The notes under the pieces were generated by a model. The model was not told where the DNA came from. It ran no database searches and saw only the letters and a list, made by a program, of their open reading frames with translations. 64,000 nt of DNA from Paracoccaceae bacterium (lineage in GTDB: Bacteria; Pseudomonadota; Alphaproteobacteria; Rhodobacterales; Rhodobacteraceae), in NCBI GenBank assembly GCA_027492585.1, contig JAPUEK010000002.1, positions 62,001-126,000 of the forward strand, in the 5' to 3' direction. Position numbers and translations under genes: made by a program. The first letter of the stretch is position 1, and each line of letters opens with the position of its first letter. Shown here in pieces: positions 2,309 through 14,933 of the stretch.

Positions 2309-3427
2309 CTAAGGCTGCTCGGCGGCATCGACGGCGGCGCGCATCGCGGCGACGGCGGCGGCGATGTTCGGCGGGTCTGCCAGCAGGCTGCCGCCGAGGA
2401 GATAGACGACATCCTGCCCGTACATCCGCACCATGTCGGCGGCGCGTTCCACGCTCATCCCGCCGCCGGGACTGGGCAGCATGGCCCGGCCCGGCCCCGT
2501 CCCCCGGCAGGCGGCGGCGATCTGCGCGCATTCCTGCGCGGAGAAGCCGAAGCGCCCGCCGACATTCGGGAAGACCGAGATATCGGCGCCGGCGATCCGC
2601 TGGATCGTGCCGAAGAGGACGCCATGGTCGATGCCGGTGTCGGGTGCCAGCACATAGGGGCCGAGAAAGGCCGGATGGGTCATCACCGGCAGATCGAGGG
2701 AGGCATCCCGCGCGATCCTTTGCACCATGCCGAAGCCGAAGAGCCCCGGCATCACCAGAATCCCCCCCGCCCCGGCATCGCGGGCAAAGCGCAGATTGGC
2801 CTCGATCTCCTCCGCCGGTCCGGAGAGGTTCGGGAAGTAGAGCGCGCTGCGCCCTTCCTCGGCATTGGTCTTGGCGACGGCGGCGGCCACCGCCTCCACC
2901 CGCGCGCGGAAGGGGGCGGTGGGCTGGCCGGCAAGGCCGTGGTCTTCCTTGACGATATCCGCCCCGCCACGCACGCAGTCTGCGGCCAGAGCGGCAAAGG
3001 CCGCGACCGGCTGGCCCATCGGCTTCAGCACCGGGGCGATCAGGCCGCCCCTTGGCCGGTCGGCCCTTGCGCGGATGCCCCCGATGCCGAAGCGCGGGCC
3101 GGGCAGGCGCGCTTCCATCGTCGCCCCCGGCTCGATCCCGGTCACGCGGATGCCCTGCTGGATGGAGGAATTGCCGAAGACCACGTTGAGGAACTGGGTC
3201 ATCTCCGTCCCGGCGCTGTCGGGCGAATAGGAGATCCGGGCCTGAAAGACCCCCTCGGCGAGTTGGCCGATCTCCTCGATGCGTCCGACGATCTCCTCGG
3301 CGACATAGCCTGCGGGAACCACGGCGCGCGGGATTTCCACCGTCTGCTCCAGTGCGATGCCCTCGGCGCGGGCAAGCGCCTCGGCCCGGTTTGCCGCCCG
3401 CACCCGGTAGGTGACGGTGAACCGCAT
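2309..3427 (-). CDS. RuBisCO-like protein (form IV large-subunit homologue)
   Basis: A 372-residue protein with a small N-terminal alpha/beta domain and a TIM barrel related to the RuBisCO large subunit. The metal-site stretch reads GGADIVKEDHG: Lys160 matches the carbamylated lysine and Asp162 a metal ligand, but the adjacent glutamate of true RuBisCO is His163. In the LKPMG loop Lys135 matches catalytic Lys175, while the second loop lysine is missing. Carboxylase activity is therefore not expected. Known RuBisCO-like proteins act in methionine salvage (enolase, isomerase) or in apionate catabolism (3-oxo-isoapionate-4-phosphate decarboxylase); which type this is cannot be decided here. Its ATG overlaps the stop of the transketolase C-subunit. 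It is the last gene of a minus-strand operon with the transketolase and sugar ABC genes. Confidence 0.88.
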   Translation of the reverse strand: MRFTVTYRVRAANRAEALARAEGIALEQTVEIPRAVVPAGYVAEEIVGRIEEIGQLAEGVFQARISYSPDSAGTEMTQFLNVVFGNSSIQQGIRVTGIEPGATMEARLPGPRFGIGGIRARADRPRGGLIAPVLKPMGQPVAAFAALAADCVRGGADIVKEDHGLAGQPTAPFRARVEAVAAAVAKTNAEEGRSALYFPNLSGPAEEIEANLRFARDAGAGGILVMPGLFGFGMVQRIARDASLDLPVMTHPAFLGPYVLAPDTGIDHGVLFGTIQRIAGADISVFPNVGGRFGFSAQECAQIAAACRGTGPGRAMLPSPGGGMSVERAADMVRMYGQDVVYLLGGSLLADPPNIAAAVAAMRAAVDAAEQP

Positions 3428-4428
3428 CAGAGCGCCTCTGCCTTCACGGCGGAATGGACCGCCTCCACCCGCACCGCCCCGAGCGCGTCCTCGTTGATGC
3501 CGGTCTGCTGGCCGGTCAGCCCTTCGACCGCGCGGACGAGCGACAGCGCATCCATGCCGTAATAGCGCATGAGATAGGGCCGCGAGCCGCCATGGGCATA
3601 GGTATCCTGCAATCCGAGCCGGATCAGGCGGCGGGCGAGACCCGCTTCCGCCAGAGCCTCGGCCACCATGGAGCCGATGCCGCCCACCACGAGATGGTTT
3701 TCAAGCGTGATGACGCCGTGTTTCACCGCCTCGGCATGGGCGACGATCTGCGCGGCGTCGAAGGGTTTCAGCGTGTTCAGATGCAGATGGCGCACCGAGA
3801 CCCCGGCGCGGTCGAGCGCCCCGCGCGCCCGGATCGCCTCTTCGGTGGTGATGCCGGCGGTGATGACCAGCACGTCGGTCCCCTCGGCCAGCACCCGCAT
3901 CCGGCCGATCTCCAGCGGGGTATCGAAGAGCCGCGGCACCGATCCGCGCAGGATCCGGCAATAGACCGGGCCATCAACGGAATCCGCCGCCGCGACGATG
4001 CTTTCCACCTCCGTCGCATCGCCCGCTTCCAGCACGGTCATGTTGGGGATGGTCCGCATGACCGAGATATCCTCGATCGCCTGATGGGTCATGCCGCCGG
4101 GCGTGGTCACGCCGGGCAGGAAGCCCATCAGCCGCACCTGCCGGCGCGGATAGGCGATGGAGGCCATGAGCTGGTCATAGGGCCTGCGGTAAAGGAACAC
4201 GCCGAAGGAATGGAGGAAGGGCCGGAACCCCGCCAGACCCAGCCCGCCGGCGAAGGAAAGCATGTTCTGCTCCGCCATGCCGAGGCTCAGGAACTGGTCC
4301 GGGTGGCGGTCGCGGAAGCCGTCCACCTCGCAGGAGGAGGTGAGATCGGCGGACAGGCACAGCACCTCGGGGTGCTGCACGGCATAGGCCTCGAAAGCCC
4401 TGGCATAGGGGCGGTTCACCATTTCCAT
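3427..4428 (-). CDS. Transketolase, C-terminal subunit (Pyr and C-terminal domains)
   Basis: The second half of a split transketolase. Residues 1-170 form the pyrimidine-binding domain with the catalytic glutamate in GMAEQNML (about residues 50-57), and the rest is the C-terminal domain. Works as a heteromer with the N-terminal subunit encoded just upstream; the stop and start codons are separated by one base. Transketolases move two-carbon ketol units between sugar phosphates using thiamine diphosphate. Split forms are known in specialised routes such as apulose-4-phosphate cleavage. Here the neighbours are a RuBisCO-like protein and a sugar transporter, so a dedicated catabolic role is more likely than the general pentose phosphate pathway. 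Confidence 0.9.
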   Translation of the reverse strand: MEMVNRPYARAFEAYAVQHPEVLCLSADLTSSCEVDGFRDRHPDQFLSLGMAEQNMLSFAGGLGLAGFRPFLHSFGVFLYRRPYDQLMASIAYPRRQVRLMGFLPGVTTPGGMTHQAIEDISVMRTIPNMTVLEAGDATEVESIVAAADSVDGPVYCRILRGSVPRLFDTPLEIGRMRVLAEGTDVLVITAGITTEEAIRARGALDRAGVSVRHLHLNTLKPFDAAQIVAHAEAVKHGVITLENHLVVGGIGSMVAEALAEAGLARRLIRLGLQDTYAHGGSRPYLMRYYGMDALSLVRAVEGLTGQQTGINEDALGAVRVEAVHSAVKAEAL

Positions 4429-4429
4429 G

Positions 4430-5359
4430 TCAGTGGCCTTTCAGGTCAACGGGGGCGATGCCCAGTTCGGCGGCGATTGCGACGTTCATTTCCGCCCGTT
4501 CCTCATCGGATTTGAAGCGGACGTAATGCAGCCGCGGGAAGCGCCGCATCAGGAAGTCCATCCCCTGCGTCGGGCTGGAATGGGCCAGAACGATCAGCGG
4601 GCGGCCTTCGTGCGGGGTGGCCTTGGCCTGCCGCAGCGCGCTCAGGTCATGGGCGTCGACCTCTGCCACCACGGCGCCGAAGTTGCGGAACTTGGCGGCG
4701 ATGTCGCCCACGGTCATGACAGAATCCATGGCGCCGTCGCATTGCTGGCGGTTCACATCCATCAGCGCCCAGAGGTTGTCGATGCCGTGATGGGCGGCGG
4801 CCTGTACGGCCTCCCAGGTCTGGCCCTCCTGCACCTCGCCGTCGGACATGTAGACGCAGACCTCGCCCGTCTCGCCCCGGCGCTTGCGCCCCCAGGCGAG
4901 CCCCGCCCCGGTCGACAGCCCGATGCCGAGCGTGCCGTTATGCACCTCCATCCCCGGAGAATGTTCGGCCCCGATCATCTCGACCGAGGAGCCGTCCTGA
5001 TTGAACATCTCCAGCCCCTCGGGCGCCATGCGGCCGACTTCGATCAGGCAGGCATAGGCGACGAGCGCGTAATGGGCGGGCGCGATGAACAGCCGGTCAT
5101 GCACGGCATCGAAGGGGCCGTTGTAGCCTGCGCCGGTGCGATAATCCGTATTGCCTGCCGAAGGCACGCCCCCGAAGGGCGGCGGGATCAGCGGCATGGT
5201 CGAAGGGCCGAGGTTCAGCGCCTCGTTATAAAGAAAGGCGAGCTGCTCGGCGGCGGAACAGGCCTGGCTCAGATAGCCGCCGTTGTTCCGCATGGAATGT
5301 TCGAAGACGCGGCAGCGGATGCCATGGGCAACATCCTCGGTGGCACGGGAGTTTCGCAA
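4430..5359 (-). CDS. Transketolase, N-terminal thiamine-diphosphate-binding subunit
   Basis: About 309 residues corresponding to the PP domain of transketolase. The thiamine diphosphate motif is visible as SDGEVQEGQTWEA followed about 25 residues later by DVNRQQ. A TTG start at 5357-5359 is preferred because AAGGA lies seven bases upstream and translation then begins close to the conserved region (RATEDVAHGIRCRVFEHS). Starting at the ATG at 5476 would add a proline-rich, unconserved tail overlapping the upstream gene. The partner subunit follows directly. The gene lies 92 bases after the periplasmic binding protein, across a strong hairpin. Confidence 0.85.
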   Translation of the reverse strand: MRNSRATEDVAHGIRCRVFEHSMRNNGGYLSQACSAAEQLAFLYNEALNLGPSTMPLIPPPFGGVPSAGNTDYRTGAGYNGPFDAVHDRLFIAPAHYALVAYACLIEVGRMAPEGLEMFNQDGSSVEMIGAEHSPGMEVHNGTLGIGLSTGAGLAWGRKRRGETGEVCVYMSDGEVQEGQTWEAVQAAAHHGIDNLWALMDVNRQQCDGAMDSVMTVGDIAAKFRNFGAVVAEVDAHDLSALRQAKATPHEGRPLIVLAHSSPTQGMDFLMRRFPRLHYVRFKSDEERAEMNVAIAAELGIAPVDLKGH

Positions 5360-5451: not shown

Positions 5452-6489
5452 TCAGCGGGCGGGCAGGGCCATCCACGGGCTGACCGAAACATCGGCATGG
5501 ACGAAGGCGGGCAGCTTGGCGCCCAGCTCTTCCATGTTGGAGATGTTCAGCTCGTTCAACTGCGCCTGGGTGATCAGGGTCGGCGGCACGATGACGCTCG
5601 CGCCCACCGTCTCGCCGGCCAGAAGCTGCGCGAGGGTGCGGACCGAAACCTCGCCCACCACGGCGGGGTTGGTCGCGGCGGTGGCCTTCCAGGACGAGCC
5701 CGGCTCGCGCATCAGCGCGATGTCGGCGGTCGAGATGTCGGCGGAATAGATCGCCACATCGGCCGACATGCCGGCTTCGTCCACGGCGATCTTCACGCCC
5801 TTGGCGAATTCGTCATAGGGGGCGAAGACCACCTGGATGTCCGGGTTGGCCGACAGGACCGATCGCGCCTGGTTGGCGACCGAGTTGGCGATCGGGTTGT
5901 CCATCGTGCCGAACATCGCCTTTTCGGTGATGCCCGGATATTTGGCCTTGAACTCTTTCCAGGTCTCGTCGCGGCGGTCGAGCGGCGCGATCCCCGGCAC
6001 ATAGACATAGCCGGCGGTCCAGGTCTCGCCCTGATCCTTGATCGCCTGCTCAAGGGCAAGGCGGGCAAGGTCGCGGTCGGATTGCTCGACCTGCGGGATG
6101 GCCGGGTTCTCGACGTTCACGTCGAAGGCGACGACCTTGATCCCGGCCGCCACGGCGCGCTGCGCCGCATCCTTCATGGATTCGGTCAGACCGTGCTGGA
6201 TGATGATGCCCTGCACGCCAAGTGCGATGGCCTGATCGACCATATCGGCCTGAAGCGCCGCATCCTGCCGCGAATCGAAGACCTGAAGGTCGACACCAAG
6301 CGCCGCCGCCTGCTTTTCCACGCCCGAAAGATAGGCCTGGAAGAAGTCGCCGGTGGACAGATAGCGCACGAGCGCGATCTTCACCTTGCCGGGATTGTCG
6401 AAGGGCGCGGGCGCACCCTCGGCCAGAGCCATGCCGGGCAGAAGGGCGATACCGCCCATCAGGCTCACGAAAATCCGTCTCGAAATCAT
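5452..6489 (-). CDS. Periplasmic sugar-binding protein of an ABC transporter (ribose/RbsB type)
   Basis: A 345-residue periplasmic-binding-protein type I. The start is the ATG at 6489, five bases after GAGGGAGG, giving MISRRIFVSLMGGIALLPG, a signal peptide cleaved near ALAEG. The mature part begins with KVKIALVRYLSTGDFFQAY and has the two alternating lobes of the ribose/xylose family. It captures a sugar and delivers it to the permease and ATPase encoded just upstream. Ligand identity is not readable from sequence; downstream kinase and isomerase genes suggest a pentose or 5-modified pentose. Confidence 0.88.
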   Translation of the reverse strand: MISRRIFVSLMGGIALLPGMALAEGAPAPFDNPGKVKIALVRYLSTGDFFQAYLSGVEKQAAALGVDLQVFDSRQDAALQADMVDQAIALGVQGIIIQHGLTESMKDAAQRAVAAGIKVVAFDVNVENPAIPQVEQSDRDLARLALEQAIKDQGETWTAGYVYVPGIAPLDRRDETWKEFKAKYPGITEKAMFGTMDNPIANSVANQARSVLSANPDIQVVFAPYDEFAKGVKIAVDEAGMSADVAIYSADISTADIALMREPGSSWKATAATNPAVVGEVSVRTLAQLLAGETVGASVIVPPTLITQAQLNELNISNMEELGAKLPAFVHADVSVSPWMALPAR

Positions 6490-6522
6490 GGGTTCCTCCC
6501 TCATGTGTCAGTCAGTCCGTCG

Positions 6523-7539
6523 TCAGGTCCGCCCCCGGCCATTGCGGCCGGAGAGGGCGAAGGTGAATACCAGAGCCACCACGAGCACGGCGCCCTTGAT
6601 GAAATCCTGGGTGTAATAGGGGGCGTTGAGCATGGTCAGACCCTGCAGCAGGATCCCCACGAAGAGCGCGCCGATGGCGGTGCCGAAGGCATTGGGCTTG
6701 GCCGCGCCAAGGACGGCAAAGCCGATCAGCGCCGCGGCCACCGCATCAAGCAGCAGGTTGTTGCCCGAGGCCACATCGCCGCGCCCGAGCCGCGCCGCCA
6801 GCAGGATGCCGCCGAAAGAGGCCAGCGTGCCGGAGATCACATAGGCCAGCACCCGGTAGCCGTTGACGTTGATCCCCGCGAGCGAGGCCGCCTTGGCGTT
6901 GGAACCGATGGCATACATGACCCGCCCGTGGCGGGTCAGTTCCAGAAAGCCCCAGACCAGCAGGGCGATCACGATCAGGAAGACCACCGACAGCGGCACC
7001 AGATCCTCAAGGATGAAATCCAGCCGGTAACGGCCCAGCATCAGGAACCCTTCGGAGAAGGTCCCGGTCGCCGTCCCGCCGCCCGGCAGCGACATGCCGG
7101 TGGAGATGGAATTTCCTTCCGTCGGGATGCGCTGCAAGCCCATCAGAAGGAACATCATCCCAAGCGTGGCCAGAAGATCCGGCACTTTCATCTTCACGAT
7201 CAGAAGCCCGTTGATCAGCCCGACCAAGGCTCCCATGGCAAGGCACAGAAGCACCGCCTCCACCGCGCCGAGATCCCAGATCACCATCGCATAGGCCGAC
7301 AGCATCAGCGCCGAGGTGGCCACCGCCCCGATCGACAGGTCGAACCCGCCCACCACCAGCGTTGCCGTCACCCCAAGCGCCAGAATCCCGGTGATCGCCA
7401 CCGATTGCAGGATGAAAACCCCGCTGCGCGCCGACAGGAAGGCCGGCTGCGCGACCGAAAAGCCGATGACCAGCCCCAGCATCAGCAGCAGAAAGCCGTA
7501 GCGGATGGCGAAGTCGGTCAGATTGAAATCTTTTTTCAT
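6523..7539 (-). CDS. Sugar ABC transporter permease (RbsC type)
   Basis: A 338-residue inner-membrane protein with about nine to ten hydrophobic segments and the RbsC-family block VVGGFDLSIGAV near residues 62-73. The C-terminal half carries the conserved GSNAKAASLAGINV loop that contacts the ATPase. It forms the channel as a homodimer. The start overlaps the stop of the ATPase gene by four bases (ATGA), so the two are translationally coupled. The binding protein follows 33 bases downstream. Confidence 0.9.
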   Translation of the reverse strand: MKKDFNLTDFAIRYGFLLLMLGLVIGFSVAQPAFLSARSGVFILQSVAITGILALGVTATLVVGGFDLSIGAVATSALMLSAYAMVIWDLGAVEAVLLCLAMGALVGLINGLLIVKMKVPDLLATLGMMFLLMGLQRIPTEGNSISTGMSLPGGGTATGTFSEGFLMLGRYRLDFILEDLVPLSVVFLIVIALLVWGFLELTRHGRVMYAIGSNAKAASLAGINVNGYRVLAYVISGTLASFGGILLAARLGRGDVASGNNLLLDAVAAALIGFAVLGAAKPNAFGTAIGALFVGILLQGLTMLNAPYYTQDFIKGAVLVVALVFTFALSGRNGRGRT

Positions 7540-9044
7540 GCGGAATGTCCTGCGGCGGATTCGGTGACCTGCGCCATCACGAGGCCAAGGTCGATGTTCT
7601 GGTTGCGGTGCGCGCCGGCGATGGAATGTTCGCTCATCACGAGGATGCGGTCGGCGATCTCGAGCGCCTCGTCGATCTCGGCGCAGAGGACGAGCGTAGC
7701 GCGCGTCGCCGCACTTTCGCGGATGCGCTTGCCGATGTCGCGGCGGGCCTGAATGTCCACGCCCTGGAACGGCTCGTCGAGGATCAGCAGGCGGGAAGCC
7801 TCGGCGAGCCAGCGGGCCACCACCACCTTCTGCTGGTTGCCGCCCGAAAGCGTCAGGATGCCGTCCTTCGGCCCCTGGCAGACGACGCCCATCTCGGCGA
7901 TCATCCGGCTCGCCACAGCCCGCTCCGAGCCGCGCCGCATCAGGCCCAGAAGGGCGGCGTGGCGGCCGAGGAAGGGCAGGGTCATGTTGCGCGTCAGGTC
8001 GAAATCCGGGACCACCGAGTTCAGGAGCCGGTCCTTGGCCGACAGGAACACCCCGGCACGGACCGCCACCCCCGGCGAGGCGGGCGCATAGGCTGCCCCA
8101 TCGAGCCGCAACTCCCCCGCCACGGGCGCGGTGATGCCGTAAAGCACCTCCGCCAACGCCGATTTGCCGGAGCCGACAAGGCCGGTGATCGCCACCACCT
8201 CATTCTCGTGCAGGGTCAGATCGAAGGGCGCGGCCCCGGCCCGCAGCACCAGCCCGCGCGCCTCGATCACCGGGCGCCCGGCGGGCGGAATGTCGATATC
8301 GACCTCGGTGATCTCATGGCCGAGCATGGCCCGCACCGCCCCGGCATAGTCGAGCGGCTGGCTTTCGAACCGGCCCGAAATCAACCCGTCGCGCATCGAC
8401 ACGATCCGGTCGGCAAGGCGGCGGATATCCGACATGCGATGCGAGATGTAGAGGATCGCCACCCCCTCCGCCCGCAGCCGGTCGATCAATGCGAACAGCC
8501 GTTCGGTTTCTGCCGCCGACAGCGAGGAGGTCGGCTCGTCAAGGATCAGCAGACGCGGTTTGTGCGACATGGCGCGGGCGATGGAGACAAGCTGGCGGTC
8601 CGCCAGAGCCAGCTCCGACACCGGGCGCGTCACGTCCACGTCGAGCCCCACGGCCCCGGCGATCCGCCGCGCCTCCGCCCGCATCCGGCGGCGGTTGAGG
8701 ACGAAAGAGGAGCCCGAAGCCAGCTCGTCCAGCAGAAGATTGGAGGCGACATCGAGATCGGGGGCCACCCCGTCATTGATGCTCTGATGGACCGTCACAA
8801 CCCCGGCCCGCAGCGCCGCCGCCGGGCTTGCCGGCTCGAACGGGCGACCGTCGAGGGTGATCGTGCCGGAATCCGCCGCCTGCACCCCGCAGAGGATCTT
8901 CACCAGCGTCGATTTTCCCGCCCCGTTTGCGCCCATCAGCACGGTGACCTGCCCGGCCGAAAGCGTCAGATCGACGCCGCGCAGCACGTTGTTGCGCGCG
9001 AAGGACTTCGTGAGCCCCGCTATTACGATGGCGTCTTGCGGCAC
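7536..9044 (-). CDS. Sugar ABC transporter ATP-binding protein (RbsA/MglA type, two domains)
   Basis: A 502-residue protein with two fused ATPase domains. The first has Walker A GANGAGKST, a weak signature LALADRQLVSIARA and Walker B LLILDEPTSSL. The second has GLVGSGKSAL, LSGGNQQKV and LLILDEPFQGVD. This tandem form is specific to monosaccharide ABC systems. The GTG at 9044 is chosen because GAGAGGAG lies six bases upstream; a longer frame reaches 9089 but would run into the palindrome at 9087-9112. First gene of the minus-strand operon ABC-transketolase-RuBisCO-like. Confidence 0.9.
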   Translation of the reverse strand: MPQDAIVIAGLTKSFARNNVLRGVDLTLSAGQVTVLMGANGAGKSTLVKILCGVQAADSGTITLDGRPFEPASPAAALRAGVVTVHQSINDGVAPDLDVASNLLLDELASGSSFVLNRRRMRAEARRIAGAVGLDVDVTRPVSELALADRQLVSIARAMSHKPRLLILDEPTSSLSAAETERLFALIDRLRAEGVAILYISHRMSDIRRLADRIVSMRDGLISGRFESQPLDYAGAVRAMLGHEITEVDIDIPPAGRPVIEARGLVLRAGAAPFDLTLHENEVVAITGLVGSGKSALAEVLYGITAPVAGELRLDGAAYAPASPGVAVRAGVFLSAKDRLLNSVVPDFDLTRNMTLPFLGRHAALLGLMRRGSERAVASRMIAEMGVVCQGPKDGILTLSGGNQQKVVVARWLAEASRLLILDEPFQGVDIQARRDIGKRIRESAATRATLVLCAEIDEALEIADRILVMSEHSIAGAHRNQNIDLGLVMAQVTESAAGHSA

Positions 9045-9086
9045 GGTGGTCTCCTCTCCCCCTGGCAGGCTAGCCCTCCGGTTATT

Positions 9087-9112
9087 CAAATGTCAATAAT
9101 GTTTGACAAATG
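9087..9112. promoter_or_regulatory. Candidate operator of the sugar regulon, site 1
   Basis: Imperfect palindrome CAAATGTCAA-6-TTGACAAATG (8 of 10 positions symmetrical) between the divergent ABC and kinase genes. Its left arm, read on the minus strand, gives TATTGACATTTG, identical over 12 bases to 12761-12772 in the regulator/aldolase promoter region. Inferred target of the SorC-family regulator encoded at 11756-12730. Confidence 0.6.
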
Positions 9113-9230
9113 CCGGAAGAGCGGAAATTCTCTTCTGGAACTCGGGCGGGGAAGAGGAGAAAATCCCCCTCGAAGCGCTGAAAACCGGCGGCGGAGACCT
9201 GTTCCAAAGCTGGCGGAGGAGGAGAATACC

Positions 9231-10496
9231 GTGATTCCGACTGACTATGAGGCGCTGGCGCCTGACACTCTGCCTGCCCGACTGGGGCATCTGGCGCTTC
9301 TGACCGACCGGGTCGGGCCGGCGGAAAGCTGGCAGGTCGAAGAGGTGGGCGACGGCAACCTGAACCTCGTCTTCATCCTGCGCGGCACTCTGGGGGCGGC
9401 CATCGTGAAGCAGGCGCTGCCCTATGTGCGGCTTGTGGGCGAATCCTGGCCGCTGCCGCTGAAGCGCAGCTTTTTCGAATATCACGCGCTGATGCGGCAG
9501 GCCGCCCGCGACCCCGGCGCCGTGCCGGAGGTCTGGCATTTCGATGAGGGGCAGGCGATCGTCGTGATGGAATTCCTGACGCCGCACATCATCCTGCGCC
9601 ACGGGCTGATCGCGGGGAAACGCTACAAGGATCTCGGCGAAAGGCTCGGCCTCTTCTGTGCGCGCACGCTTTTCCGCGGCTCCGACCTGTCGATGGCGAC
9701 GGCGGAGAAGAAGGCGGATATGGCGTTGTTTGCCGGCAATGTCGAACTCTGCGACATCACCGAAAACCTCGTCTTCTCAGACCCTTACTTCGAGGCGCCG
9801 ATGAACCGGCATACGGAGGGGCTGGAAGGTTCCGTGGCCCGGCTGCGCGCGGACCTGCCGCTCAAGGTCGCCGCGCAGCATCTGAAGATGGCCTTCACCG
9901 CGCAGGCGGAAACGCTGCTCCATGGCGATCTGCATACCGGGTCGGTCATGGTCTCCGACGCGGAAACACGGGTGATCGACCCGGAATTCGCCACCTATGG
10001 CCCCATCGGCTTCGATGTGGGGATGCTGATCTCCAACTTCCTGATGGCCTTCATGTCCCAGCCCGGCCATGAGGCGGAACCCGGCGACCGGGCCGGCTAT
10101 CAGGACTGGCTCCTGTCGGTGACGGCGGCGGTCTGGACCAGCTTCGAGGCGGAGTTCACCCGGCTCTGGCGGGAGGAGCGGCGCGGCATCCTCTATCAGG
10201 CCTCGCTTTATGAAGATCAGGACCACGGCCTCGCCTCCGAGATCGCGCGGGCCGAACGGCTGGCGGCGATCTGGCGCGACGCGCTCGGTTTCTGCGGGGT
10301 GGAAATGCACCGCCGCATCCTCGGCCTCGCCCATAACGCCGATTTCGAGCGGATCGCCGATCTCCCCACCCGCGCCGCCTGCGAGGCGCGCGCCCTTGCG
10401 CTTGGCACGGCGCTGATCCACGGCCGCGCCAGCATTACCGGAATCCCCGCCGTGCTCGATCTCGCCCGGCGTCTCAGCACGGAGAACCACCTGTGA
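9231..10496 (+). CDS. mtnK: 5-methylthioribose kinase-like sugar kinase (MtnK family)
   Basis: A 421-residue kinase of the MtnK/choline-kinase fold. The nucleotide loop is [10 protein letters not shown] (39-48), the catalytic loop HGDLHTGS (231-238) and the metal motif DPEF (250-253), followed by the family block GPIGFDVG. MtnK phosphorylates 5-methylthioribose at C1; close relatives phosphorylate 5-deoxyribose. The GTG at 9231 is chosen because GGAGGAGGAG ends about five bases before it; the open frame extends far upstream only as an antisense shadow of the ABC genes. It overlaps the isomerase gene by four bases. No enolase, dioxygenase or other standard methionine-salvage gene is in the window, so the substrate remains open. 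Confidence 0.85.
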
Positions 10497-11602
10497 AGAT
10501 CAACGGCAAGCCCTATCGTTCCATCTGGCGCGAGCCTTCGGGTGAGGTGCAGATCATCGACCAACGCTGGCTGCCGCATGAGCTGCGGATCGTTCCCCTG
10601 GCCGGGCGCGCCCGCTATGCCGAGGCGATCCGCGACATGTGGGTGCGCGGGGCGCCGCTGATCGGGGCGACGGCGGCCTACGGGGTCGCCGACCAGATGG
10701 CGCGCGATCCTTCCGACGCCTCGCTGTCGGAGACCTGGGAGGTGCTGCACGAGACCCGCCCGACCGCGATCAACCTGCGCTGGGCGCTCGATGAGATGGA
10801 CCGGGTGCTGCGGCCCCTTGCCCCCGCAGATCGCACCGCCGCCGCCTGGATCCGCGCCGACGAGATCGCCGAGGAGGATGTGGAGATCAACCGCCGCATC
10901 GGCGAGAACGGCCTTGCGATCATCCGCGGGATCGCCGCCCGCAAGAAGCCCGGCGAGCGGGTGAACATCCTCACCCATTGCAATGCCGGCTGGCCCGCGA
11001 CGGTGGATTGGGGAACCGCCACCTCGCCCATCTATCATGCGGTCGAGGCGGGGATTCCCGTCCATGTCTTCGTGGACGAAACCCGCCCGCGCAATCAGGG
11101 CGCGCAGCTTACCGCGTGGGAACTGAACTCCGCCGGGGTCAGCCATGACCTGATCGTGGACAATGCCGGCGGCCATCTGATGCAGCATGGCGAGATCGAC
11201 ATGGTGATCGTCGGCACCGACCGCACCACGGCGCAGGGCGATGTCTGCAACAAGATCGGCACCTATCTGAAGGCGCTTGCCGCCAGGGCCAATGGCGTGC
11301 CGTTCTATGTGGCGCTGCCCTCCCCCACCATCGACTGGACGGTGGTGGACGGGGTGAAGGAGATCCCGATCGAGGAACGCTCCGACGCCGAAGTGACGCA
11401 TGTGCAGGGCAAGGATGCGAGCGGAAAGATCGTGCAGGTCCAGATCAGCCCCGATGGCACCGGCGGCCGCAACCCGGCCTTCGACGTGACCCCGGCGGCG
11501 CTCGTCACCGGGCTGATCACGGAACGCGGTGTCTGTGCGGCCGATAGCGCCGCCATGGAGGCGATGTTCGGCGATCTGAAATCCGCCGCGCTGAAGCGCT
11601 GA
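10493..11602 (+). CDS. mtnA: S-methyl-5-thioribose-1-phosphate isomerase-like protein (MtnA family)
   Basis: A 369-residue aldose-ketose isomerase related to eIF2B. It carries [13 protein letters not shown] (52-64), the catalytic cysteine in THCNAG (Cys163), [17 protein letters not shown] (195-211) and the catalytic aspartate in [11 protein letters not shown] (Asp243). It would convert a 5-substituted ribose 1-phosphate to the ribulose 1-phosphate. The block around Asp243 differs from the usual GADRI..NGDV, so specificity may have shifted. The GTG start lies inside the kinase stop (GTGA), showing tight coupling. The product is the type of ketose 1-phosphate that a class II aldolase can cleave, and such an aldolase is encoded 1.3 kb downstream. 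Confidence 0.85.
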
Positions 11603-11755: not shown

Positions 11756-12730
11756 TCAAAGTTCCTGAGCCAGCAGCGCCTCGGCCACCGTCAGCCCGGT
11801 CACGAGATGGGTGACATATCCTCCCCGGATCGCGGCCATCGTCGCCGCCACCTTGTCATGGCCGGGGGTGACGAGGATCCCCATCTCCAGCCCGACCAGA
11901 CGCTCCAGCGGGATGCCGATCATCCGCGCCTCCATCGGGCCGGGGATCGGCTTGCCATGGGCGTCGATGAAGCGGCCGCAGATCACGCCCTCGGCGCCGC
12001 TGCGGGTGTAATGCTCCAGATCGGCGAGGGTGGCGAGGCCACTGGAGACGATATGGCTGTCCGCCGCCACCGTACCGACGGAAAAGAGCAGCTTGTTGAC
12101 CTTCTCGATCTCGTCAAGCTGCACCCGCAGGATCGGTTCGGCCCGCAGCGCCTCGGCAAGGGCGGCACTCGACAGGATCGCCGGGGCGTGCAGGTTGAGA
12201 CAGCGCGCCCCGAGCCGCTGGGCAAGACGGGTGGAACAGGCCTCGGCGGTGAAACCATAGGGCGTCGCCATGGAGCCGACGAGCTGGAGGACCGTCATCT
12301 CCTCCGTCCGTGTCGTCTCGAGCGCCTCGGCAAGGTCATAGACCGTCCGCCCCCAGGCCACGCCGAGATTGTCGCCGGGCGCCAGCAGGTCCGGCAGCCA
12401 CAGCGCCGCGCCGCGCACCACCCGGCGGAAGGCCTCCTCCTGATCGGCGCCCTCATCCGGCACCACATAGGCGGAGCGCAGCCCGAACCGCTTGCACAGA
12501 TCGGTCGCCAGCCTATGCGTGGTGAAGGCGGGGGCGGCGAGGGTGATGCGGATCAGCTCCCGCTCCCGCGCTTCCTGGAGGTAGTTCACCACCGTCGCCC
12601 GCGAAATCCCGAGCGCCTCGGCGATGTCCTTCTGGTTCAGCCCGTCGTGGTAGTAAAGCCAGGCCACTTCGATCACGGCATTCTCGCCGCTGACCTGCCC
12701 CATGGTGCGACGCTTGCTGGTAAGGTTCAC
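11756..12730 (-). CDS. SorC-family sugar-responsive transcriptional regulator
   Basis: A 324-residue regulator. Residues 15-60 form a winged helix (AWLYYHDGLNQKDIAEALGI followed by SRATVVNYL). Residues 65-324 form the SorC sugar-phosphate-binding domain related to NagB, with GVAWGRTVYDL and the terminal VTHLVTGLTVAEALL block. The GTG at 12730 follows AGAGG at a normal distance. It is divergent from the aldolase-dehydrogenase gene and convergent with the isomerase gene. SorC proteins bind phosphorylated sugars, so the inducer is probably a kinase or isomerase product of this locus. Confidence 0.88.
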   Translation of the reverse strand: MNLTSKRRTMGQVSGENAVIEVAWLYYHDGLNQKDIAEALGISRATVVNYLQEARERELIRITLAAPAFTTHRLATDLCKRFGLRSAYVVPDEGADQEEAFRRVVRGAALWLPDLLAPGDNLGVAWGRTVYDLAEALETTRTEEMTVLQLVGSMATPYGFTAEACSTRLAQRLGARCLNLHAPAILSSAALAEALRAEPILRVQLDEIEKVNKLLFSVGTVAADSHIVSSGLATLADLEHYTRSGAEGVICGRFIDAHGKPIPGPMEARMIGIPLERLVGLEMGILVTPGHDKVAATMAAIRGGYVTHLVTGLTVAEALLAQEL

Positions 12731-12863: not shown

Positions 12864-14933
12864 ATGAGAACGAACCTCTGGAACGACGCCGAGGCGCGGG
12901 CTTTGCAGGATGCGGCCGGTGACGATCCTGCCGCGCGGGAGCTGGCGCTGCGGGTCTATTCCTCCCGGATCATCGGGCGCGATCCAGATATGGTGATGCA
13001 CGGCGGCGGCAATACCTCGCTCAAGGCGCAGGCCGTGGATGTCTACGGCGACCTTGTGGATGTGCTGCACATCAAGGGCTCCGGCTGGGATCTGGAAACC
13101 ATTCAGGCCGCGGGCCTTCCGGCGGTGCGGATGGCGCCGCTGGCCCGGCTCCGCGGGCTTGCGACGCTTTCGGATGAGGCGATGGTCAATGTGCAGCGCG
13201 CGAACCTGATGGACAGCGCCGCGCCGAACCCCTCGGTGGAGACGCTGCTCCATGCCTGGATTCCGCATACCTACGTCGATCACACCCATGCCACCGCTTT
13301 CCTGACGCTGGCGAACCTGCCGGAGGTGGAGGCCGCCACGCGCGAGATCTTCGGGTCGAGGCTGACGCTGCTGCCCTATATCATGCCGGGCTTCGCCTTG
13401 GCCAAGGCCGCCGCCGATGCCTATGACGCGGCGCCGGAGGCGGAGGGGCTTCTCCTCATCAACCACGGCCATTTCACCTGGGGGCCGACGGCGAAAGCCT
13501 CCTATGACCGGCTCGTCGCCCATACGAACGAGGTGGAGGCCTGGCTTGCCGACCGCCGGCCGGAGCCGCTGCGCCCTTCGGCCGCGCTGCCCCAGCCGAA
13601 GCTGGCCGAGGTGCTGGCCACCCTGCGCGGGGCGCTCGCCTCCGCCCTGCCGGAGACCGCCGCCCTGCCGGTGCTGGATCTGCGCGCCGATGAGGGAACC
13701 CGCGCCTTCACCCTGCGCGGCGATCTGCCCGCCCTTGCCACCCGTGGCGTTGCGACACCGGATCATGTGATCCGCACCAAGGGTCATCCGCTGATCCTGA
13801 CCCGTGCGACGCTGACCGGCGGCGCGGAGGCGATCCGCGCCGCGGTCTCGGCCTTCAGCGCCCGCTACAAGGCCTATTTCGACCGTCAGGCGCCGGGGGC
13901 GGCCGAGACCAAGACCATGCTCGCCACCATGCCGGGGCTCGTCTGGATCGAGGGCGAGGGCATCGTCGGGGTCGGCGCCAATGCCGCCGCCGCCCGGATC
14001 GCGGGTGACATCGGCACCCAGACCGCGCGGGTCATGGCCGATGGCGAGCGGCTCGGCGGCTTCCATCCGATCGGCGAGAAAGACCTCTTCGAGATGGAAT
14101 ACTGGTCGCTGGAGCAGGCCAAGCTCGGCAAGGGCAAGCCGCCGCGCTTTCAGGGCAAGGTGGTGCTGGTGACGGGCGGGGCGGGGGCCATCGGCCTTGC
14201 GACCGCAAGGGCCTTTGCCGCCGAGGGCGCGACCCTTTTCGTGGTGGACCGCGATGCGGCGCTTCTGGCCGCCGCGCTCAAGGCGCTCGGCCGCGACCAT
14301 GACGGGCTGGCCTGCGACATCACCGAAGCCGGCGCGGCGCGGGCGGCGGTGGAGGCTTGCGTTGCGCGCTTCGGCGGGCTGGACATTCTGGTGTCCAATG
14401 CCGGGGCCGCGATGACCGGGGAGATCGCCACCCTGCCCGAAGAGGTCCTCCGCCAGAGCTTTGAGCTGAATTTCTTCGCCCATCAGGCCTTTGCCCAGGC
14501 GGCGGTTTCAGTGTTCCGCGCCCAGAGCCTTGGCCGGGGCAGCCGGGGGGCGGGGGATGCCGGTCAGATCCTGATCAACGTCTCCAAGCAGGCGGTCAAT
14601 CCGGGCAGGAATTTCGGCGCCTACGGGCTGCCCAAGGCAACGACCTTCTTCCTTCTGCGCCAGCTTGCGCTCGAACTCGGGGCCGAGGGCATCCGGGTGA
14701 ACGGCGTCAATGCCGACCGCATCCGCTCGGGCCTTCTGACCGATGCGATGATCGCGGCGCGGTCCTCGGCGCGGGGGCTGGACGAGGCGAGCTACATGGG
14801 CGGCAACCTGCTGGGGCGGGAGGTCGAGGCCGGTCATGTCGCTGCCGCCTTCACCGCCCTTGCCTCTGCGGCGCGCACCACCGGCCATGTGATGACGGTG
14901 GACGGCGGCAATATCGAGGCGGCGCTGCGCTAG
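12864..14933 (+). CDS. Bifunctional class II aldolase / short-chain dehydrogenase (RhaD-Adh type)
   Basis: A 689-residue fusion. Residues 1-425 are a class II aldolase with HGGGNTSLK (46-54) and zinc-binding histidines in DHTHA (His140, His142). Residues 431-689 are a classical SDR with TGGAGAIG, SNAGA and the catalytic pair Tyr587/Lys591 in YGLPK. Relatives split rhamnulose 1-phosphate into dihydroxyacetone phosphate plus lactaldehyde and oxidise the aldehyde. Beside a kinase and a ketose-1-phosphate-forming isomerase, it would plausibly split a 5-substituted ribulose 1-phosphate and handle the two-carbon aldehyde. The ATG at 12864 follows GGGGAGGG; longer starts upstream run through the promoter region. 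Confidence 0.88.
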   Translation: MRTNLWNDAEARALQDAAGDDPAARELALRVYSSRIIGRDPDMVMHGGGNTSLKAQAVDVYGDLVDVLHIKGSGWDLETIQAAGLPAVRMAPLARLRGLATLSDEAMVNVQRANLMDSAAPNPSVETLLHAWIPHTYVDHTHATAFLTLANLPEVEAATREIFGSRLTLLPYIMPGFALAKAAADAYDAAPEAEGLLLINHGHFTWGPTAKASYDRLVAHTNEVEAWLADRRPEPLRPSAALPQPKLAEVLATLRGALASALPETAALPVLDLRADEGTRAFTLRGDLPALATRGVATPDHVIRTKGHPLILTRATLTGGAEAIRAAVSAFSARYKAYFDRQAPGAAETKTMLATMPGLVWIEGEGIVGVGANAAAARIAGDIGTQTARVMADGERLGGFHPIGEKDLFEMEYWSLEQAKLGKGKPPRFQGKVVLVTGGAGAIGLATARAFAAEGATLFVVDRDAALLAAALKALGRDHDGLACDITEAGAARAAVEACVARFGGLDILVSNAGAAMTGEIATLPEEVLRQSFELNFFAHQAFAQAAVSVFRAQSLGRGSRGAGDAGQILINVSKQAVNPGRNFGAYGLPKATTFFLLRQLALELGAEGIRVNGVNADRIRSGLLTDAMIAARSSARGLDEASYMGGNLLGREVEAGHVAAAFTALASAARTTGHVMTVDGGNIEAALR

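Follow-up and report, generated by a model that had tools for sequence, protein, structure and literature searches.

A RuBisCO-like protein (RLP) gene of a Paracoccaceae bacterium is packed on one strand, in last place, behind the two genes of a split transketolase-like thiamine-diphosphate enzyme, here named TkN and TkC (together, TK). This pairing with a dedicated thiamine enzyme is the interesting part of the locus. An earlier sequence-only reading of the window (the whole 64,000-nucleotide stretch that was analysed) had singled out the RLP for its altered active-site residues; the observation of the RLP stands, and the novelty read from its residues does not. No paper describing an RLP-split transketolase pairing was found in open-licence PubMed Central, as judged from titles and the starts of abstracts. 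We tentatively propose, as one possible reading, that RLP and a "methylthio-phosphoketolase" open a route for 5-methylthioribose (MTR) and methylthioadenosine (MTA) that would need neither oxygen nor glutathione, would convert 1-methylthioxylulose-5-phosphate (MTXu-5P) to glyceraldehyde-3-phosphate, acetate or acetyl phosphate, and methanethiol, and would occur with exchangeable front ends in Alphaproteobacteria, Clostridia and other phyla.

The RuBisCO-like protein

What kind of enzyme is the window RLP? The gene (positions 2309 to 3427, minus strand; P0001, 372 residues) was assigned to the TK-linked lineage of DeepYkr-type RLPs from its open frame, Pfam, an AlphaFold2 model searched with Foldseek, an alignment and trees. 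It scores 73.1 bits with PF00016 (RuBisCO_large), for which the cut-off is 30.1, and the AlphaFold2 model (mean pLDDT 91.8) aligns from end to end with RLPs and RuBisCOs. PDB entry 3qfw is the best match both by sequence and in Foldseek (E 1.2e-35, TM 0.87/0.92), and in VIA-align it ties with MtnW structures at a Z of about 45. By its PF00016 score and predicted fold, the protein is a member of the RuBisCO superfamily. The residues that had drawn attention, namely Lys160, Asp162, a His163 in place of the KDDE glutamate, and a lone loop lysine in LKPMG, were read correctly. The codons of Lys160-Glu161-Asp162-His163, the K-x-D-H metal-site motif, lie at positions 2939 to 2950 and that of the single loop lysine, Lys135 (K135-P-M137), at 3023 to 3025, both on the minus strand, and Met replaces the second loop lysine.

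Are these residues peculiar to the window? We aligned 111 RLPs: 84 TK-linked, 15 in a cupin group (the RLPs of 14 loci that have a neighbouring cupin gene, and 3qfw), nine with neither gene in view, and three MtnW-type PDB anchors. Lys160 and Asp162 are each present in 84/84 TK-linked RLPs, His163 in 83/84 (Asp in Vibrio locus L028) and Lys135 in 83/84 (Asn in L078); in this alignment the features are conserved and not chance. The L078 protein (8790-9917) comes from a metagenome-assembled genome (MAG), and its Asn could be a sequencing error or mark a changed enzyme. Position 163 is also His in all 15 cupin-group rows and in seven of the nine unlinked rows; the other two unlinked rows have Glu and are taken to be L019 and L020, another RLP branch in a 97-row tree. 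Where the second loop lysine would stand, the cupin group has Gln throughout (15/15), and the TK-linked rows have Gln (43), Met (26), Val (13) or Leu (2). Since every cupin-group row has His163 and just one loop lysine, the supposedly altered active site is the normal DeepYkr one, and the argument from altered residues to a new reaction fails. As judged from the alignment, K-x-D-H with one loop lysine is the normal signature of assigned DeepYkr RLPs. K135, K160, D162, H163, N86, H251 and R292 are conserved in the TK-linked and cupin groups alike; positions that separate the groups cleanly include T29/S, Y67/L, F295/Y and G321/A, in a comparison that leaves out L028 and counts L049, L050 and L058 as TK-type.

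The known classes were considered in turn. The earlier view that this is no DK-MTP-1-P enolase (MtnW) is borne out: TIGR03332 gives 129.4 bits against a cut-off of 513.6, and all three MtnW-type anchors have Glu, the MtnW ligand, where the window RLP has His163. In addition, Lys98 of the MtnW structure 2oek, which we take to be the base, is Asn86 in the window RLP. What the two proteins have in common is the RLP fold and a methylthioribose salvage context. Likewise, we rejected 3-oxo-isoapionate-4-phosphate decarboxylase (OiaX; NF042437, 67 bits against 700) and type III RuBisCO (TIGR03326, 99.9 bits against 497). The D-apiose pathway, which we take to use RLPs together with a split transketolase, is ruled out for the window locus by the mtnK and mtnA neighbours and by the low OiaX score.

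The closest assayed relative is R. palustris RLP1, a 5-methylthioribulose-1-phosphate 1,3-isomerase with a kcat of 1.3 per second; DeepYkr RLPs convert this substrate to MTXu-5P and 1-methylthioribulose-5-phosphate in a 3:1 ratio (both from the accessible portion of PMC5893883). The R. rubrum RLP, another DeepYkr isomerase of this kind in the MTA-isoprenoid shunt, is likened to the window RLP by function only. We take 3qfw to be RLP1 because its title names R. palustris and 2qyg, in the same match list, is titled rlp2; we place it in the cupin group because the R. palustris cupin, RPA2170, is numbered next after RPA2169 (PMC5893883, accessible portion). The window RLP and 3qfw share K-x-D-H, the single loop lysine and the catalytic positions.

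In a careful 43-row tree (L018, L019, L020, L028, L092, L106 and rows more than 68% identical left out) the cupin-group rows form one clade with 3qfw inside it (support 100/100); in a quick 97-row tree (TK-linked rows more than 85% identical to a kept row left out) this clade also takes in the unlinked row L018. The clade of the window RLP is a different one and TK-linked, with 20 rows (support 100/99) in the first tree and 57 rows, four without a TK gene at the locus, in the second. The trees leave the order of further deep branches unresolved; these hold TK-type rows from Clostridium, Symbiobacteriaceae, Chloroflexota, Spirochaetota and Thiomargarita. Because just 14% of the bootstrap trees (43-row tree) set the TK rows apart from all others by a single branch, we make no claim as to which linkage, TK or cupin, is older. 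The sampled cupin-linked RLPs make up one compact clade beside more diverse TK-linked RLPs; all cupin-linked rows in the trees are alphaproteobacterial, and RLP-cupin pairs also occur in nine Firmicutes (PMC5893883, accessible portion). By these trees the window RLP is a relative of the assigned enzyme and lies outside its clade as sampled, that is, with alphaproteobacterial cupin rows only. The sequence-only reading had proposed that membership in an assigned clade with the same residues would decide against novelty: the residues are indeed shared, and the window RLP stands outside the RLP1 clade as sampled.

Linkage to a split thiamine enzyme

How general is the pairing? We examined 88 loci (L021 to L108), comprising eight plasmid records and 80 genome loci; the latter were fetched with TK-linked RLP queries and are the best 80 of 511 relatives, so the fraction that follows does not describe DeepYkr RLPs as a whole. 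In 81/88 loci the RLP gene has TK genes next to it, and wherever both TK halves were found the order is TkN-TkC-RLP on one strand (76/76). The genomes of L049, L050 and L058 carry a cassette-type TkC elsewhere (74-76% identity), as does that of L095 (54%); in the genomes of L092 and L106, both MAGs, no cassette-type TkC was found at E 1e-60, and L027, with no adjoining TK gene, has a cupin.

A less biased sample is provided by 385 genomes of the class, in which at most five first-look candidates per genome were scored, so that misses are possible. DeepYkr-type RLPs occur in 17 of these genomes, three TK-linked, 13 cupin-adjacent and one (L018) at a contig edge; two further RLP matches, L019 and L020, belong to the other branch. 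Cassette-type TkC (59-100% identity) is present in three of the 385, exactly those with a TK-linked RLP, and five more hold a different split transketolase at 40-44% identity to TkC.

Does TK stand where the cupin stands in other systems? We searched 30 chosen genomes, namely seven of the 13 with a cupin-linked RLP, the three TK-type genomes of the class and 20 of the 80 genome loci, and found the cupin in 7/7 cupin-type as against 1/23 TK-type genomes. The window genome gave no match to the cupin methylsulfurylase at E 0.01 with the same query that finds all seven cupin-type genomes. In the other direction, cassette-type TkC was found in 0/12 cupin-type genomes, one of which (G231) has a 42% relative. 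The single TK-type genome with a cupin, G391, has one RLP. The DeepYkr isomerase works with the cupin in the MTA-isoprenoid shunt, whereas the partner of the window RLP is a split thiamine enzyme, and the window locus, unlike that system, has an importer and kinase front end. From gene linkage, we consider it likely that TkN/TkC acts on the RLP product.

The split thiamine enzyme

TkC (3427 to 4428, minus strand; P0002, 333 residues) supplies the pyrimidine-binding and C-terminal half and overlaps the RLP start by one base; TkN (4430 to 5359, minus strand) supplies the thiamine-diphosphate-binding half. Both were assigned by Pfam, PDB match and alignment. For TkN we prefer the TTG start at 5359, giving 309 residues, because the homologues in L022 and L104 have 311 and 308. 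PF00456, PF02779 and PF02780 all score over cut-off in the pair, the best PDB match is the split transketolase 6yaj/6yak, and the thiamine-diphosphate motif SDGE with N181 (79/79) and the catalytic E53 (81/81) are invariant in the aligned homologues. Motifs and inspection by eye suggest that two other long frames in the window genome are transketolase and 1-deoxyxylulose-5-phosphate synthase (DXS); TkN/TkC is therefore probably not a housekeeping enzyme.

The canonical transketolase His and Asp residues are replaced in the family: Tyr7 of TkN (75/76) and Leu104 and Gly111 of TkC (83/83 each) align with sites that we take to be yeast His30, His469 and Asp477. The Carboxydothermus split transketolase (6yaj/6yak) shares with TkN/TkC the two-gene layout and the thiamine-binding motifs; it has His, His and Asp where TkN/TkC have Tyr, Leu and Gly, and it lacks the TkN family insert and the C-terminal tail HSxxKAEAL. 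Related split transketolases of five genomes, on the other hand, carry the same Tyr and the same loss of His and Asp, and four of the five genomes have no RLP match at E 1e-20. These five relatives rule out the changed residues as a cassette-specific mark of a special reaction. Against the five relatives and the PDB anchors, the cassette-specific features are the TkN insert, the VEMIGAEHSPGME and RxPxxHY stretches and the HSxxKAEAL tail.

The transketolase domain architecture, the thiamine-diphosphate motifs and the 6yaj/6yak match would also suit an ordinary transketolase, one that moves the methylthio two-carbon unit of MTXu-5P to an aldose phosphate, the sulfur being released later or never. 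We regard this as improbable: the residues aligned with the canonical His and Asp are lost, and the product would presumably lead nowhere without a further enzyme to use it.

Several observations bear on the wider family. L123-L127 represent a second split transketolase family lacking the canonical His and Asp, 40-44% identical to TkC; for four of these five, the host genome gave no RLP match at E 1e-20. In the L095 genome (a Spirochaetes MAG; G406:C172:2261-3253), the cassette-type TkC lies in a 667-residue frame, and a TkN-TkC fusion is possible. Finally, Enemella evansiae (L085, Actinomycetota) and Ponticoccus (L021, Roseobacteraceae) have nearly the same cluster with nearly identical TkN, which could reflect recent transfer or assembly contamination.

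Front ends of the loci

Upstream of TkN-TkC-RLP, the window holds importer genes and a divergent mtnK-mtnA pair. Profile matches identify the substrate-binding protein (5452 to 6504), permease (6523 to 7539) and ATPase (7536 to 9089) of a ribose-type ABC importer, all on the minus strand. On the plus strand follow MtnK, 5-methylthioribose kinase (9231 to 10496; GTG start, 421 residues; TIGR01767, 462 bits against 275, scanned from 9333), and MtnA, 5-methylthioribose-1-phosphate isomerase (10493 to 11602; TIGR00512, 415 bits against 279). Beyond them lie a SorC/DeoR-type sugar-responsive regulator (11756 to 12730, minus strand; PF04198 over cut-off, NF053881 under its cut-off) and a bifunctional class II aldolase/short-chain dehydrogenase (aldolase/SDR; 12864 to 14933, plus strand; profile matches). 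Since an aldolase/SDR homologue of at least 200 bits occurs in 50/88 related loci, the window gene probably belongs to the same regulon. It might offer a second, DHAP-shunt-like exit for the ketose-1-phosphate with built-in aldehyde turnover.

Homologues of both MtnK and MtnA are found in 60/88 loci, and a purine nucleoside phosphorylase (PNP) with MtnA in 9/88. For example, the Ponticoccus cluster (L021) contains PNP, an amidohydrolase, MtnA and a BisC-type S/N-oxide reductase. In C. ljungdahlii (L104), importer, mtnK, mtnA, TkN, TkC and RLP stand in a row, and neither aldolase nor cupin was recognised within its 21 kb; the enzymes of this six-part row should therefore reach central metabolites unaided.

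Other front ends differ. On a Vibrio nigripulchritudo plasmid (L028, 4886-11563), genes for an FGGY kinase and an SDR take the place of mtnK and mtnA beside TkN-TkC-RLP; the RLP there has K-E-D-D, not K-E-D-H, so the substrate may differ. L075 (531-13432) combines TkN-TkC-RLP with a PfkB kinase, a class II aldolase and a sugar ABC importer, with no mtnK or mtnA in view and a molybdopterin oxidoreductase of the S/N-oxide reductase type downstream. In L049 (2313-11128) the RLP lies beside PNP, an amidohydrolase and an ABC importer of betaine/choline type by eye, the TK being elsewhere in the genome; L050 resembles it, and L058 has such an importer without a PNP or amidohydrolase match. A small neighbour in L049 (11134-11583, minus strand) and in 11 further loci resembles, by eye, an RbsD/FucU sugar mutarotase. 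The feature common to the front ends would be delivery of a ketose-1-phosphate.

Could the RLP itself catalyse a new reaction on a ketose phosphate or acid-sugar phosphate, as the sequence-only reading supposed? The kinases and partners of L028 and L075 could be read that way, and so could the absence of the window RLP from the clade, as sampled, that holds the assayed enzyme. At its catalytic positions it has the same residues as the assayed isomerase, and mtnK and mtnA homologues stand at the same locus in most of the 88 loci; we consider a new RLP reaction highly improbable. A new reaction is possible, and the partner enzyme is a likelier place for it than the RLP.

A proposed route

We propose that the window locus encodes uptake and breakdown of MTR. 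First, the ABC importer would take in MTR; second, MtnK would form MTR-1-phosphate; and third, MtnA would give 5-methylthioribulose-1-phosphate, these three steps being predicted from family models. Fourth, the RLP would shift the carbonyl to give MTXu-5P, the DeepYkr reaction, which close homology and the common active site make very probable. Fifth, TkN/TkC, in place of the glutathione-dependent cupin, would attack the C2 carbonyl of MTXu-5P and cut between C2 and C3, releasing glyceraldehyde-3-phosphate. As a whole, the series, ending with the C2-C3 cut in a 5-methylthio substrate, seems to us, as read from the genes, to have a little under an even chance of being correct. What becomes of the sulfur? 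The thiamine-bound 2-methylthio enamine may expel methanethiol to leave an acetyl group, which would depart as acetate or acetyl phosphate. In phosphoketolase the analogous thiamine intermediate loses water. Methanethiolate is a better leaving group than water, which makes acetyl-thiamine, and then acetate or acetyl phosphate, plausible. On these chemical grounds thiol elimination at the thiamine step is a reasonable possibility, to which we give somewhat less than even weight. Exchange of the glutathione-dependent cupin step for a TkN/TkC step would suit anaerobes.

The MTR route draws support from the TK-RLP linkage, the cupin replacement, the common RLP active site, the minimal L104 unit and the S/N-oxide reductase genes. 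It is weakened by the aldolase/dehydrogenase of many clusters, which could use the same intermediate, by the cupin in the TK-type genome G391, and by the changed transketolase residues, which, being shared by the split transketolases of five genomes, four of them with no RLP match at E 1e-20, point to no special reaction.

Sulfur or deoxy sugar

The same enzymes could instead serve 5-deoxyribose, from 5'-deoxyadenosine: the RLP would make 1-deoxyxylulose-5-phosphate from 5-deoxyribulose-1-phosphate, and TkN/TkC would catalyse a reverse DXS-like cleavage to glyceraldehyde-3-phosphate and an acetaldehyde-level fragment. Known 5-deoxyribose clusters combine a kinase with an isomerase, and the DrdK kinase takes 5-methylthioribose and 5-deoxyribose about equally well (PMC6079011, accessible portion). 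TkC resembles DXS (TIGR00204, 154 bits, under its cut-off), and many clusters include a fusion of class II aldolase and dehydrogenase. For the L021 amidohydrolase, likewise, the 5'-deoxyadenosine deaminase model gives a higher score (301 bits) than that for MTA/SAH deaminase (220 bits), under every listed cut-off, and the L021 PNP is far under the MTA and MTI phosphorylase cut-offs; these scores favour no sulfur substrate, and the amidohydrolase, if anything, leans to deoxyadenosine.

Other evidence argues against the deoxy sugar. The DrdK-DrdI-DrdA cluster and the DHAP shunt (MtnK or MtnP, MtnA, class II aldolase) have kinase, isomerase and sugar importer in common with the window, where an aldolase/SDR gene is also found; unlike the window locus, however, the DrdK-DrdI-DrdA clusters are without RLP or thiamine enzyme, and the known 5-deoxyribose route ends with the aldolase, as described in the accessible portion of PMC6079011. 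The nearest assayed RLP uses a methylthio compound (PMC5893883, accessible portion), and a gene of the S/N-oxide reductase type recurs in some clusters. A BisC/TorA-type homologue occurs in 6/88 loci, in line with the cassette in L021, L085, L075 and L076. The gene was also searched for in 12 genomes, five of them picked for a copy known from their loci. G408, G395, G409, G396 and G397 have exactly one match each, in the RLP cluster or about 11 kb from it (contig and locus being equated from coordinates); in the L090 genome about 11 kb separate the only match from the RLP. Six matches are present in G394, one of them in the cluster, and the window genome and four others have no match. With TIGR00509 all matches except one, those in the clusters included, score 834-1000 bits against a cut-off of 1018, and the one over the cut-off (G391) is far from the RLP. 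Weighing these points, we consider the 5-deoxyribose reading somewhat unlikely and still a serious rival to the MTR route.

In the window genome no acireductone dioxygenase MtnD (PF03079), taken as the marker of universal methionine salvage, was found, with control matches in 5/14 and over cut-off in 2/14, nor any match to methanethiol oxidase SBP56 (PF05694), for which the control matches in only 1/14; there are four PNP_UDP_1 matches. No methanethiol-handling gene was recognised among the recurrent unassigned neighbours, judged by eye from their first 70 residues.

Implications

The view of a His-for-Glu active site as a mark of unassigned chemistry is corrected by these results. Methylthioribose is a waste product of methionine metabolism, and the RLP-TK cassette suggests a route for its breakdown in bacteria. 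If the MTR route is true, it would add a new exit for 5-methylthioribulose-1-phosphate beside the universal methionine salvage pathway, the MTA-isoprenoid shunt and the DHAP shunt. Furthermore, it would add thiamine-dependent cleavage of a C-S bond, and it would make soil bacteria, marine bacteria and acetogens biological producers of methanethiol.
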